Of a DNA stretch of 38,779 bases, positions 714 to 38,779 are shown one piece after another. The notes beneath the pieces are model-generated. The model worked only from the letters and a program-made list of their open reading frames with translations, did no database searches and was not told the origin of the DNA. The translations under genes were made by a program, and so were the position numbers. Origin of the DNA: a virus. The DNA lies in IMG/VR virus record IMGVR_UViG_3300045741_000089, positions 1-38,779 of that record, one strand, 5' to 3'. The number at the start of each line of letters is the position of its first letter. The stretch's first letter is position 1.

Positions 714-763
714 CGGCAGTTCAAGCGGACGCCTTTCAGTCGCCGCTTAACTTTGGGTTAGCC
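708..763 (+). other. attC: attC1: integron-type cassette recombination site (59-base element)
   Basis: R'' is GCCTAAC (708-714), matching RYYYAAC. R' is GTTAGCC (757-763), matching GTTRRRY except for one base. Between them is an imperfect hairpin: TT pairs AA (720-721 with 749-750), AAGCGG pairs CCGCTT (723-728 with 743-748), and CG pairs CG (730-731 with 741-742), with loop 732-740. C722 and A729 are unpaired in the top strand, which gives extrahelical G and T in the bottom strand. These set strand choice in known attC sites. Total length is 56 bp, within the usual range. Confidence 0.8.
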
Positions 764-928
764 CGCTCTCTCACTTCGGGCTCTCTTGCGTGCCAGCTTC
801 TCGGCGTACTCCGTCAGCGCAGGCGCATCGGCAGGGTGAACCCAGCGCTTCCACTGCACGCGGCCTGCGGATAGTTCGCGGGCTTTGCGCTCGGCCTGGC
901 GCTGGGCTGCGGTCTTGGCAGTGGTCAT
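758..928 (-). CDS. Small basic protein, 56 aa; paralogue of 13361-13555
   Basis: Begins MTTAKTAAQRQAERKAREL and contains RVQWKRWVHPADAPAL. It matches the protein at 13361-13555 along its first 40 or so residues (shared MT-AKT-AQRQA-KAR-L-AG-V-WVH-D--AL pattern), so the phage carries two copies of this family, one inside the cassette-like segment. Its TAA stop uses the TTA of the attC1 R' box. The start codon overlaps the stop of the upstream gene (ATGA). The charged helix followed by a WVH segment could suit DNA or protein binding; function unknown. Confidence 0.7.
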   Translation of the reverse strand: MTTAKTAAQRQAERKARELSAGRVQWKRWVHPADAPALTEYAEKLARKRARSERAG

Positions 929-1068
929 CGCAATGTCAGCCTAAGCCAAGCGGCCCACGCGCTGCGCACATCTGGCCCCCAAGCAGTCCACCAGCCGCGA
1001 GAAACGGCCCAGCCCCATTGCAGGACTGCGCCGTTACACCTTTGAACTCTGCGCAGCGTCGGTTTCAC
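925..1068 (-). CDS. Trp/Arg-rich 47-aa peptide
   Basis: GTG start overlapping the upstream stop (GTGA), and stop overlapping the downstream start (ATGA), so it is coupled on both sides in the three-gene reverse operon. The product is unusually rich in Trp (about eight in 47 residues) and Arg, with segments such as GWAVSRGWWTAWGPDVRS. No signal peptide or clear hydrophobic segment. No family recognised. The tight overlap on both sides is the main evidence that it is real. Confidence 0.55.
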   Translation of the reverse strand: MKPTLRRVQRCNGAVLQWGWAVSRGWWTAWGPDVRSAWAAWLRLTLR

Positions 1069-1298
1069 ACAGCCACCTTGTAGCCGTTTGCGCGCAGTTG
1101 CTTGGCAATGCTCGGGGCCACTTCGGCGCGCTCGCCGCCAAACTCGGCGCGAACCATCTTCAGGCCAGTCGGGTAAACCACGCTCGTGAAGCTCGCGCCT
1201 TTGGCGGCCAGGCGGCAGAAATGCATTGCCGCTTCTTTGTTCCAGCGGGCGATTGTGAAGGCGACTTCGCGGCGGGTCGTAATGCTCAGGTTGCTCAT
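1065..1298 (-). CDS. Hypothetical 77-aa protein, first gene of the cassette operon
   Basis: The ATG is preceded by a GGAG ribosome site about 7 bases away, and by a good promoter at 1334-1362. The protein begins MSNLSITTRREVAFTIARWN and ends ANGYKVAV, a compact mixed alpha/beta sequence without signal peptide or metal-binding motif. I do not recognise it. The gene before it in the twin promoter arrangement (12592-12813) is the same size but shows no clear sequence match. Confidence 0.7.
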   Translation of the reverse strand: MSNLSITTRREVAFTIARWNKEAAMHFCRLAAKGASFTSVVYPTGLKMVRAEFGGERAEVAPSIAKQLRANGYKVAV

Positions 1299-1333
1299 GT
1301 TTTTTGCTCCGGGTTGCGTGTTGCGATGAATGA

Positions 1334-1362
1334 ATATTAGTCCACCGTGAGCACTCACGCAA
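1334..1362 (-). promoter_or_regulatory. Sigma70-type promoter of the cassette operon (twin of 12538-12566)
   Basis: On the reverse strand: -35 TTGCGT (1362-1357), a 17-base spacer, and -10 TAATAT (1339-1334). The spacer and about 25 bases upstream are nearly identical to the promoter at 12538-12566, although spacers are normally free to vary. In this copy the spacer region holds a GTGAG-TG-CTCAC inverted repeat, a candidate operator. Confidence 0.7.
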
Positions 1363-1404
1363 GCACTATTTTCACTGTTACATCTGCGCGCTTCGGACAC
1401 GGCG

Positions 1405-1462
1405 GGCTAACCCGCAATTCAAGCGGACTGCCTACGGCAGCCGCTTAATTGCAACGTTAAAC
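1405..1462 (+). other. attC: attC2: integron-type cassette recombination site
   Basis: R'' GGCTAAC (1405-1411) deviates from RYYYAAC by one base; R' GTTAAAC (1456-1462) matches GTTRRRY exactly. The arms pair almost perfectly: GCAATT with AATTGC (1414-1419 with 1447-1452), AAGCGG with CCGCTT (1421-1426 with 1441-1446), and CTGCC with GGCAG (1428-1432 with 1436-1440), leaving a TAC loop. C1420 and A1427 are extrahelical, the same bases at the same spacing as in attC1. Length 58 bp. It lies between the cassette promoter and the ninB stop, which falls in R'. Confidence 0.82.
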
Positions 1463-9127: not shown

Positions 9128-9702
9128 GGGGGCTTGACAGCCGTCTGTGTGGAGCGATAGCATGATGACAGTCATCGTGGCAGCGATGGAAGATACTGAG
9201 GCCCCGGGCCTTCGTTTCGACCCCTTGAGTGGGGACCGCTGCTGCCACAGTGGGGAACGGAGACCCGGGGCCTTCGTTCGTTCTGGATTGCTTTGTGGTG
9301 GCGCGAGCGGAGAAGGATTCGCGCCGTCCTCTGGTGAGCGCCGCAGGCATGCGGAAGCAATAGTTCTAGGGGCGACAGACAGCAAGGACTGCCGTTATGC
9401 AGTTCAAGTCCCCGGCCGGGCTTGTTGTCAGCAGGTTTCGAGTCCTGCCGCCACCACAAAGCAATCCACCCATGACTCGCACTCCGCGCGCAGTAGGGGC
9501 CTGAATGGGCTGCTCGGAAGAAAACACCGATTCGCCAACTCGGAAGGCGCTGCGTGCCGGGGTGCAACTCCCATACGGTGCAGGCGTGGTTAACCAAGAA
9601 CGCCGGGGTCGGTTAGAAGCCGCAAGTCTTGGCTCTGCAAATTGGAACCTTCCCACTTCTTGCCCTGCAATGGGGTAGGGGGTGGGTTTGCTTGGAACCT
9701 CA
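9128..9702 (+). other. Long non-coding, structure-rich interval
   Basis: No credible gene on either strand in about 570 bases of an otherwise gapless genome. It contains two near-identical GC-rich blocks (CCCCGGGCCTTCGTT near 9202 and CCCGGGGCCTTCGTT near 9264), the inverted repeat element 9284-9468, and several hairpins. It also has T-loop-like strings (GTTCAAGTCCCC near 9402, GGTTTCGAGTCC near 9434). Three tRNA-like motifs occur but I could not fold any complete tRNA. A structured RNA or a decayed tRNA or mobile region are the main options. Confidence 0.6.
9284..9468. repeat. 185-bp element bounded by perfect 20-bp inverted repeats
   Basis: TGGATTGCTTTGTGGTGGCG (9284-9303) and its exact reverse complement (9449-9468) enclose 145 bases. 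Inside, 9300-9327 forms a GGCGCGA/TCGCGCC hairpin, ACTGC/GCAGT (near 9389-9404) forms another, and CCCGGCCGGG near 9411 is a palindrome. GCAGG/CCTGC with loop TTTCGAGT abuts the right repeat, like a T-arm next to an acceptor strand. No target-site duplication is evident. It could be a miniature mobile element or a non-coding RNA closed by a 20-bp stem. Confidence 0.7.
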
Positions 9703-11446: not shown

Positions 11447-11635
11447 ATGATGGCCGCAGACGTTCAGGACGTAGAAGACTCCCCCGAAGTCGCGCGGCGC
11501 CGATGGCAAGAAGAGTTCCGCGAGATCGAGCGCATCCTCGCCGAAGAGAAGCGCTGCTGCTACTGCGGGATGACTGGACACCTGTCCAAAGACTGCAAAC
11601 AACCGAGAAACGACAATGCCTTCTGGGTCATTTGA
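11447..11635 (+). CDS. Zinc-knuckle (CCHC) protein, 62 aa
   Basis: Near residues 37-50 the sequence CCYCGMTGHLSKDC fits Cx2Cx4Hx4C exactly, the retroviral-type zinc knuckle that binds single-stranded nucleic acid. The preceding 35 residues form a charged helix (RRRWQEEFREIERILAEEK). AGGAG lies upstream of two successive ATGs (11447 and 11450). The end overlaps the next gene by 20 bases. A nucleic-acid chaperone or RNA-binding role is plausible. Confidence 0.75.
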   Translation: MMAADVQDVEDSPEVARRRWQEEFREIERILAEEKRCCYCGMTGHLSKDCKQPRNDNAFWVI

Positions 11636-12188
11636 GGACTACGCAAGAGTGATCGCCGCGCTTCCCGGTACCGGGGCTGAGGTAGCAGAGAGAAGCGGTC
11701 TTACCGAGTGGGGAGCGAAGATGCTCCTGAGGCAGTTCTGGGATCTTCGGATGGTTCACCCTGGCGGGGTGACTGAAACCGGCCCGCGCGCGGCCCACAC
11801 GGCAGTCTGGCAGATAGGAGACGGTGAACGCGCTCCAGGACTGCGGGTGAAGAAGCACAAGCCAAAGCTCAATCACTATTCATTCGCCGTGCTATGGCGG
11901 TGTCTAGAGGACGGCGCGACGAAGACCGAGGCCATCGAGGCATCCGGGCTCAATCACAACACGGTCCGCCGGACGCTGGAAGCGCTGCATACGGGCGGCG
12001 CTATCCGGGTGTCAGCGTGGGAGAAGGACAGTATGGGCCGCAGCGTGATACCCGTATGGATTGCTGGCGCCGGCAAAGACGCCAAGAAGCCGAAGCCGAA
12101 AAGCGCAAACGAGAGCGAGCGCTGGCGACGGACTTACGAGCGCAGGCAGATTCATCTGGTGACGATGCTGGCGCAGGCTGGAGCTTAA
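11616..12188 (+). CDS. Two-domain winged-helix protein, 190 aa; stop lies in attC3
   Basis: Two helix-turn-helix-like units can be read: residues about 17-50 (TGAEVAERSGLTEWGAKMLL) and 95-130 (TKTEAIEASGLNHNTVRRTL), each followed by a wing-like segment. The C-terminus is basic (KKPKPKSANESERWRRTYER). Tandem winged helices suggest DNA binding, possibly as a replication initiator or regulator. The TAA stop (12186-12188) is inside the R'' box of attC3. Confidence 0.7.
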   Translation: MPSGSFEDYARVIAALPGTGAEVAERSGLTEWGAKMLLRQFWDLRMVHPGGVTETGPRAAHTAVWQIGDGERAPGLRVKKHKPKLNHYSFAVLWRCLEDGATKTEAIEASGLNHNTVRRTLEALHTGGAIRVSAWEKDSMGRSVIPVWIAGAGKDAKKPKPKSANESERWRRTYERRQIHLVTMLAQAGA

Positions 12189-12236
12189 CCAAGAATTGAC
12201 GCGCACCGAAGGTGTCGCGTCCAATGGACGTTAGGC
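12183..12236. other. attC: attC3: third attC-like site
   Basis: R'' GCTTAAC (12183-12189) and R' GTTAGGC (12230-12236) both match consensus. The stem pairs ATTG with CAAT, ACGCG with CGCGT, and CACC with GGTG around a GAA loop. T12215 and C12221 are unpaired on the right arm, so this site would be functionally oriented opposite to attC1 and attC2. Length 54 bp. The extrahelical pair is T and C where G and T are usual, so it is less typical. Confidence 0.62.
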
Positions 12237-12237
12237 C

Positions 12238-12534
12238 ATGAGAACCGCAGCCCGAGCCGACGACAACCAAGCCGAGATCGTGGAAGCGCTGCGGGCTGAA
12301 GGCTGCTACGTGGTCAACATCCGCTGGCCTGTTGACCTACTGGTGGGCGTTCCAAGTGCAGGCTGGCTTGCCGTAGAGGTAAAAGACGGCTCAAAGCCCA
12401 CCAGCGCCCGCAAGCTGACCGAAGTCCAGCTTGCGTTTATCGGCAGCGCTCCGCCAGGCTGTCCGACTGCGGTGGTGACGGATGTGGAATCGGCGCTAAG
12501 GGCTGTGCGGGCAATGTGTAACAGTGCAAAATAG
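12238..12534 (+). CDS. PD-(D/E)XK-type nuclease, 98 aa
   Basis: Starts RTAARADDNQAEIVEALRAE (after Met). It has VDLLVG (catalytic Asp) and AVEVKDGSKP (Glu-x-Lys), the core of a small restriction-fold nuclease of the VRR-NUC/resolvase-like kind, then SARKLTEVQLAFI. Small proteins of this layout are frequent in phages. It begins immediately after attC3 and lies just upstream of the twin promoter. Substrate unknown; junction or flap processing is possible. Confidence 0.75.
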   Translation: MRTAARADDNQAEIVEALRAEGCYVVNIRWPVDLLVGVPSAGWLAVEVKDGSKPTSARKLTEVQLAFIGSAPPGCPTAVVTDVESALRAVRAMCNSAK

Positions 12535-12537
12535 GGC

Positions 12538-12566
12538 TTGCGTGAGCGCTAGCGGTGGACTATAGT
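12538..12566 (+). promoter_or_regulatory. Sigma70-type promoter (twin of 1334-1362)
   Basis: -35 TTGCGT (12538-12543), 17-base spacer, -10 TATAGT (12561-12566). The spacer (12544-12560) and the preceding TAACAGTG-rich stretch are nearly identical to the cassette promoter on the other strand. Conservation inside a spacer suggests a bound regulator. Drives 12592-13962. Confidence 0.72.
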
Positions 12567-13364: not shown

Positions 13365-13555
13365 CCGCCAAAACCTCCGCCCAACGCCAAGCCAACCTGA
13401 AAGCCAGGCGCTTGGCCGCAGGCATGGTGAAGTTCACCCACTGGGTGCATGCTGACGATGTGGCGGCGCTTAGGGCGATGACTGGCGAATTGCAACAGCG
13501 CCGCGCCTTTCGACTTCTAGAAGCGACTGTGCGGGCGATACAGGAGAAGAAATGA
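13361..13555 (+). CDS. Small basic protein, 64 aa; paralogue of 758-928
   Basis: Starts MTAKTSAQRQANLKARRLAA and reads on GMVKFTHWVHADDVAALRAM. It matches the cassette protein at 758-928 in the N-terminal helix and the WVH-D--AL core, then diverges. ATG overlaps the methyltransferase stop. It may act with the methyltransferase or as a small DNA-binding protein. Confidence 0.72.
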   Translation: MTAKTSAQRQANLKARRLAAGMVKFTHWVHADDVAALRAMTGELQQRRAFRLLEATVRAIQEKK

Positions 13556-37996: not shown

Positions 37997-38718
37997 TGGA
38001 CCGCGCGGCCGGCTGGATCATCGTGCGCGGCCTGCTAGTGCTGGCTGGCCTGTTCTGGCTGGCCGGCAGGGCTGACGCATGGTGCACGATGCCGCCGCCT
38101 GCAAACCCCGGGCCGGCGCAGCCTCAACTTCCGAACGTGGCGCACAAGTGCTGGCCGCAAAAGTGGGGGCTGTCGTTCCTGAGCGGCCAAGGCTACGTCG
38201 AAGGCGACATTGCAGCGGTGCCAGGCGCAACCACGGAAGGCGGCCATTGCGCTGCGTGGTGGTGCAAGGATTCCGCTGGCGCGTGGAACGTGGAAAGCCA
38301 TTGTGCGCTGACCAGCTATACGGTAGGCGGTGTCATGTCGGGCATTACTTCCGCGCTGGGAGCGACCGATCCGGTATCTGCTCTGCAAGCCTTTGCCGAC
38401 AAATACGTGGTCACGCTGACCGATCCGGGGCAGATCAACTCGTACAACTGCCTGCACTGGGCCATCCAGCAGCAGGCGCAAGCCACGAAGCCAAGTGCTG
38501 TGCCGCCACCAGTGGCGTACTGGGTGACCAGCACGACGGCCTACCCGCTGAACCCGGACGGCACTCGGTCAATCACACCGTGGCCTACCAAAGCGCTGCT
38601 GCATGAGCCTTGCGATTGCTCCATTAAGGTGACACAGTTTGGCGCTACCTTTTGCAAGGTTCCAACCCTCAGCACTCCGGCCCTGGCGGTGGTCGCCGGT
38701 TGCGGAGTTTCCAAGTGA
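37996..38718 (+). CDS. Exported Cys-rich phage protein, 240 aa
   Basis: ATG overlaps the preceding stop. N-terminal signal MDRAAGWIIVRGLLVLAGLF with ADA cleavage-type end (ADAWC). The mature part has about ten Cys (HCAAWWCKDSAGAW, YNCLHWAIQQQ, HEPCDCSIKV) and Trp-rich motifs, so it is a disulfide-bonded periplasmic or outer-surface protein. It contains no known hydrolase motif. Its 3' part has a divergent allele at 2-211. Function unknown; position suggests lysis, adsorption or exclusion. Confidence 0.72.
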   Translation: MDRAAGWIIVRGLLVLAGLFWLAGRADAWCTMPPPANPGPAQPQLPNVAHKCWPQKWGLSFLSGQGYVEGDIAAVPGATTEGGHCAAWWCKDSAGAWNVESHCALTSYTVGGVMSGITSALGATDPVSALQAFADKYVVTLTDPGQINSYNCLHWAIQQQAQATKPSAVPPPVAYWVTSTTAYPLNPDGTRSITPWPTKALLHEPCDCSIKVTQFGATFCKVPTLSTPALAVVAGCGVSK

Positions 38719-38779
38719 CCACCCAACTAGACCGCATCGAATCTTCGCTGGCTTCGCTGCATCGCAAACTAACCTCGTG
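38508..38779. repeat. Right copy of imperfect terminal overlap (pairs with 1-272)
   Basis: Aligns to 1-272 with 15 mismatches, the last being 38652 against 145. From 38653 to the end the 127 bases are identical. See the left copy for interpretation. Confidence 0.85.
38715..38779 (+). CDS. 5' fragment of the coiled-coil gene (208-552)
   Basis: The first 65 bases of the same gene that is complete at 208-552, cut by the window edge. GTG overlaps the stop of 37996-38718. On the circle it is one gene. Confidence 0.75.
   Translation, partial: MTTQLDRIESSLASLHRKLTS

Follow-up and report, generated by a model that had tools for sequence, protein, structure and literature searches.

Efficient attC exchange involves the bottom strand only and takes place between the A and the C of RYYYAA|C. 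In recombination the bottom strand is preferred about a thousandfold (PMC8946536). It is already known that phages can carry attC: clusters of attC lacking an integrase (CALIN) have been described in TJE1, P12002L, PH101 and MW202573, and two attC of TJE1 recombined with attI1 through IntI1 (Qi et al. 2023, PMC9892861). What is at issue is whether such phage-borne sites are passive debris or in use. The phage CALINs of Qi et al. consist of two or more attC within 3 kb, a criterion that would miss the single site studied here, hereafter site 3; the IntegronFinder authors accept that a CALIN with a single attC may be a true positive (PMC9024848). Like the latter, site 3 is one isolated predicted attC, while it differs from them in its phage operon setting and in the gene stop codon located in its R' box. 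As in the phage CALINs, the attC of our locus come without a local integron integrase. The known examples differ in orientation: in the depositors' annotation of MW202573 the genes are on the plus strand and all four attC on the minus strand, an antisense arrangement like that of site 3, whereas the TJE1 attC are sense to the genes.

The source DNA, a viral record from IMG/VR, is 38,779 bases long; it was analysed over its full length and is referred to as the window. It displays a terminal direct repeat of 271 nt (2–272 and 38509–38779, 95% identical), possibly reflecting a genome that is circular or has terminal redundancy, together with a strain difference, and a perfect 20-nt inverted repeat (9284–9303 and 9449–9468) whose arms are 145 nt apart. 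Site 3 (12183–12236, 54 bp) reads GCTTAAC CAAGA ATTGACGCGCACC GAA GGTG T CGCGT C CAAT GGAC GTTAGGC on the plus strand, and its ends form the sole exact RYYYAAC...GTTRRRY pair of the window at 45–150 nt spacing. With DNA parameters, the plus strand folds as (((((((.....(((((((((((((...)))).))))).))))....))))))), that is, a 7-bp R stem, a central spacer of 5/4 nt, an L stem, a 3-nt loop and two extrahelical bases on one arm; by its fold it therefore resembles a textbook attC bottom strand. The R' box (12183–12189, GCTTAAC on plus) and the R'' box (12230–12236, GTTAGGC on plus) both match the RYYYAAC/GTTRRRY consensus perfectly. They enclose the unpaired central spacers of the L'-R' side (12190–12194) and of the R''-L'' side (12226–12229, GGAC on plus), and between these the L'/L'' stem (12195–12225) with its GAA loop (12208–12210). 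The extrahelical bases, T12215 and C12221 (or C12222) according to the fold and the model alignment, are both on the 3' arm of the plus strand; in a minus-strand reading they occupy the canonical attC places, 6 positions apart, the second of them coinciding with the conserved GAC. On the bottom strand, a C replaces the usual G as first extrahelical base, and the L boxes differ from the common TTCAAGC/GCTTAA type. All these elements are assigned to the minus strand, which is the predicted top strand, the plus strand being the predicted recombinogenic bottom strand. An intrinsic terminator was considered at this position and rejected, as the sequence after the stem is GGACGTTAGGCC and no T run follows the GC hairpin.

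Upstream of the hairpin lies a winged-helix-type HTH gene (11616–12188, plus strand, 190 aa; weak HTH matches below cut-offs), whose TAA stop at 12186–12188 falls within the R' box, at R-box offset 4. Downstream, and separated from the site by one base, the ATG at 12238 opens a small endonuclease-like gene (12238–12534, plus strand, 98 aa), which was assigned to PHROG 93 (phrog_93 endonuclease, 5.6e-8) and has homologues, while a Pfam search with the protein gave zero matches. The first-pass annotation had described the two consensus R boxes with a sound stem, the location between these two genes, and extrahelical bases on the arm that implies an orientation opposite to the two other sites, attC1 and attC2; the exact boxes, the DNA fold, the gene boundaries and the minus-strand model match reported below bear out this description.

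A covariance model was built from canonical attC of bacterial contigs (119 stretches) and of 20-kb regions around integron integrases, to which more training attC located by R boxes and fold were added; the final set, in which the variable loop was shortened, comprised 45 non-redundant sites, all of them bacterial and none from phages. Covariation in support of the structure is strong across this set: 151 cells changed on both sides, compared to 51 in shuffles. The first-pass annotation had proposed a scan of both strands, and when run it returned three confident sites, and no others, in the window: attC2 (1405–1462, plus, canonical; 47.9 bits, E 1.2e-11), attC1 (708–763, plus, canonical L boxes; 37.3 bits, E 1.3e-8) and, as the weakest of the three, site 3 (minus strand, full model length 1–60; 27.2 bits, E about 1e-5), these E-values being rough since the model is our own build with a short calibration and not the published attC model. 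On the plus strand site 3 scored 10.4 bits, and the best noise 10.8. A separate pair/PWM scoring trained on the same 45 sites gave 41.0 for site 3, with 26.4 as the best of 400 dinucleotide shuffles; the score was thus matched by 0/400 shuffles (extrapolated P about 2.5e-5), while a looser hairpin criterion taken alone was mildly significant, with 0.23 matches per shuffled window (45–130 nt). For comparison, about 50 model matches adjoining intI in bacterial loci range from about 22 to 70 bits, and the three sites found by the same model in TJE1, which may include the two assayed attC, score 27.0, 28.6 and 39.2 bits; site 3 therefore falls within the accepted attC range, at its low end. Other viral loci, about 1.9 Mb in total, contained 14 confident matches (E ≤ 0.01): the array-bearing contigs L091, L150 and L154 accounted for ten, and L155, L130, L047 and L393 for one each. 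An Rfam scan of site 3 returned nothing at gathering thresholds.

Judged by all the sequence and structure features tested, except the unusual L boxes and the first extrahelical base, site 3 is a predicted member of the attC family, and it is very probably an attC by descent. The covariance model detected no second attC within several kb, the nearest being about 11 kb off. Site 3 is thus not a CALIN under the two-site rule, while attC1 and attC2 are close enough together to count as a CALIN or cassette array (at least two attC). It is not an integron either: the tyrosine integrase domain PF00589 (Phage_integrase), by which the intI of a complete integron would be recognized, is absent from the window.

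The two plus-strand sites bound a gene cassette of 699 bp (758–1456, plus strand, from sequence and model), a self-consistent unit that spans the predicted crossover points of attC1 and attC2. Its genes are on the minus strand, namely an orf at 1065–1298 and a 56-aa ORF ending in the R' box of attC1; in attC2, the TAA stop of NinB lies within the R' box on the bottom strand. The TTAGCC that opens the cassette can base-pair with the cassette's own R'' box GGCTAAC, and this pairing would be the signature of a cassette that was once circular. No match to the 1065–1298 orf was found in Pfam, in PHROGs or in six integron-bearing genomes, the last search having been run without a positive control. 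A promoter/operator-like 23-nt sequence, TTGCGTGAGNGCTNNCGGTGGAC, occurs at 1340–1362 (minus strand) within this cassette and again at 12538–12560 (plus strand) behind the nuclease gene; two copies were seen in 0/100 shuffles, and with its plausible -35/-10 spacing the repeat suggests that a cassette gene may be under a phage regulator. The TTCAAGCGGAC...CCGCTTAA boxes of attC1 and attC2 are shared with gammaproteobacterial sedentary chromosomal integrons (including Burkholderiales and Rhodanobacter types), with which site 3 has in common the R boxes, the spacer and the extrahelical layout. Unlike in these integrons, intI was not found in the window and the genes run against the attC orientation. 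Indeed each of the three sites in the window runs antisense to its local operon, so the opposite orientation of site 3 is less special than it sounds.

The canonical attC pattern was present in 28 IMG/VR stretches, with up to 12 attC each, and orientation was called from the longer ORF between neighbouring attC. Bacterial integron loci gave 232 sense, 12 antisense and 60 undecided intervals, as against 7, 32 and 23 in viral contigs; with one count per locus, the figures (sense/antisense/undecided) were 51/0/4 for bacteria and 2/11/10 for viruses, four terminase relatives being added to the latter, and since the longer ORF is an imprecise indicator in GC-rich DNA, and the set may include bacterial contigs and does include near-copies, the size of the effect is uncertain while its direction is clear. 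Recognisable gene homologues near attC were antisense in each of six loci (L449, L451, L453, L456, L459 and L460). Viral attC arrays (L449–L475, and L476, which is MW202573) are mostly antisense, with TJE1 as an exception, and a limited literature search found no earlier report of an attC inversion in phages. One 4.5-kb viral contig carries 12 consecutive attC with units of about 240–890 bp (L456:110–4153).

Relatives of the window were gathered by similarity of their portal, terminase or methyltransferase genes; searches of IMG/VR with only the nuclease or only the winged-helix protein retrieved none. Five attC were counted in L091, three in L150 and two in L154, and L155, L130 and L047 also carry attC; in these six contigs none of them shares its strand with the anchoring phage gene. 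The L091, L150 and L154 sites have the layout of site 3, with a minus orientation, an R' box that in several cases holds a stop codon, and the next start at or inside the hairpin. Start codons inside the attC hairpin, some with a possible ribosome-binding site, were seen at L091:2223–2316, L150:3058–3162, L154:5825–5924 and L155:91–177, so that the hairpin encodes the first residues of the following protein. The contigs L150 and L154 are near-identical, with a left flank of 99.2% identity up to GCCTAACGC and a right flank of 89.7% from within the last attC, and they share nothing in between: the same backbone holds different contents between attC, two cassettes in L150 (2593–3805) and one in L154 (5825–6442). 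A second pair, L455 and L472, is 91–100% identical over shared blocks, but one of the two has an additional unit of about 428 bp, which lies between two attC and carries a 120-aa ORF (L455:9010–9522, L472:7029–7976); concomitantly, the L455 attC combines the left flank of one L472 site with the right flank of the other. These whole-cassette differences make cassette gain and loss visible in phages. As the hairpin interiors are mosaic, either an integrase or homologous recombination between attC could have driven the differences in both pairs. BLAST of the array regions against public phages gave zero matches.

The minus-strand match of site 3, together with known attC biology, predicts a crossover at 12188|12189 (GCTTAA|C on the plus strand, the attC bottom strand), just 3' of the winged-helix TAA. 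Insertions would then be expected on the left of the hairpin, behind the winged-helix stop, so that the advice of the first-pass annotation to look for insertions or deletions after 12236 pointed to the wrong side. The comparison of relatives that it proposed gave no support for exchange at this place, since the winged-helix to nuclease order is kept in L154 and L150 (winged-helix 32% identity, E 3e-12, in L154; nuclease 43–44%), where the two genes overlap (GCATGAGACG...) and the hairpin is absent from the junction, and no relative with a different gene content at this junction was found. Hence the repeated cassette-type exchange that it had suggested holds for the relatives, which gain or lose cassettes at attC, while none was seen at site 3 itself. 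Two further contigs, L142 and L039, have the nuclease with other neighbours and are uninformative on this junction. Among 84 nuclease homologues, the start is at most 10 nt from, or inside, the preceding gene in 75, and no attC adjoins or precedes the nuclease in any. A winged-helix protein search among phages gave zero matches. The only R-like box nearby downstream, GCCCAAC at 13379–13385, was considered as the far cassette end and discarded, being within a reading frame and without a hairpin; no credible far boundary for site 3 was found downstream. The conserved junction without hairpin in L150 and L154 makes site 3 a lineage-specific lone attC, either inserted in the window's lineage or lost in others.

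We put at roughly 60% the probability that site 3 is an integron attC by descent which would also still be competent for recombination. In this phage lineage, a lone attC without local integrase would have entered the junction of the winged-helix gene and the nuclease gene. When single-stranded, probably during phage replication, the plus strand would fold into the site 3 hairpin, and an integron integrase from the bacterial host would act in trans to cut it at GCTTAA|C; the exact crossover, the host IntI and the continued activity of the site are what we infer from its features. Modules made of an attC and an ORF could then enter or leave behind the winged-helix stop with neither neighbour gene damaged. 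In the phage operon such modules would have the attC first and the ORF second, the hairpin either containing the next start codon or shortly preceding it. More tentatively, and at somewhat less than even odds, phages of this kind may use an inverted cassette format in general, attC-then-ORF and antisense to the bacterial one, with the crossover behind the upstream stop and the following gene starting inside the hairpin or behind it; host integrases would then shuffle operon genes, and site 3 would be a docking site.

The main rival explanation is that the site is dead, a scar left by a past attC or cassette insertion of which the rest was lost, with a decaying hairpin at which exchange would be impossible. 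We consider it less likely than a site that is still competent, even though the site is single, has the lowest score in the window together with a non-canonical first extrahelical base and L boxes, lacks a detected downstream cassette boundary and sits in a gene order that is unchanged relative to L150 and L154. Decay is at odds with the perfect R boxes, all seven R pairs of which form on the plus strand, and with the intact extrahelical spacing, spacer sizes and GAC triad; besides, TJE1, a phage with experimentally active attC, has similar-scoring sites (PMC9892861). Well behind comes an early-operon element that would act at the RNA or translation level, in coupling, processing or stability, and be attC-like by convergence. 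The hairpin is positioned exactly between two genes, it also forms as RNA (-29.8 kcal/mol for a wider stretch, z -2.0), and the GGAC of the unpaired spacer may provide ribosome-binding bases for the nuclease. Such an element is nonetheless improbable: it would require neither the R-box consensus nor a strand-specific match (27.2 against 10.4 bits), it is missing at the L150/L154 junction with attC beside none of the 84 nuclease homologues, and site 3 shows neither a T run nor a terminator match. A chance inverted repeat is the least credible of all, for although site 3 was selected out of many observations and loose R-box hairpins do arise in shuffled windows, the failure of all shuffles to reach its score, its E-value and the scarcity of confident matches in other viral loci argue strongly against it.

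Site 3 and other lone attC would offer docking points to which detectors requiring at least two sites are blind. The reversed gene orientation suggests a cassette pool adapted to phages, and it offers a testable route to where cassettes originate and how they enter and exit phages. Two near-identical pairs demonstrate cassette gain and loss within phage lineages. Altogether, given the whole-cassette differences between near-identical relatives at attC, phages of this kind appear to exchange genes via a recombination system borrowed from their bacterial hosts.
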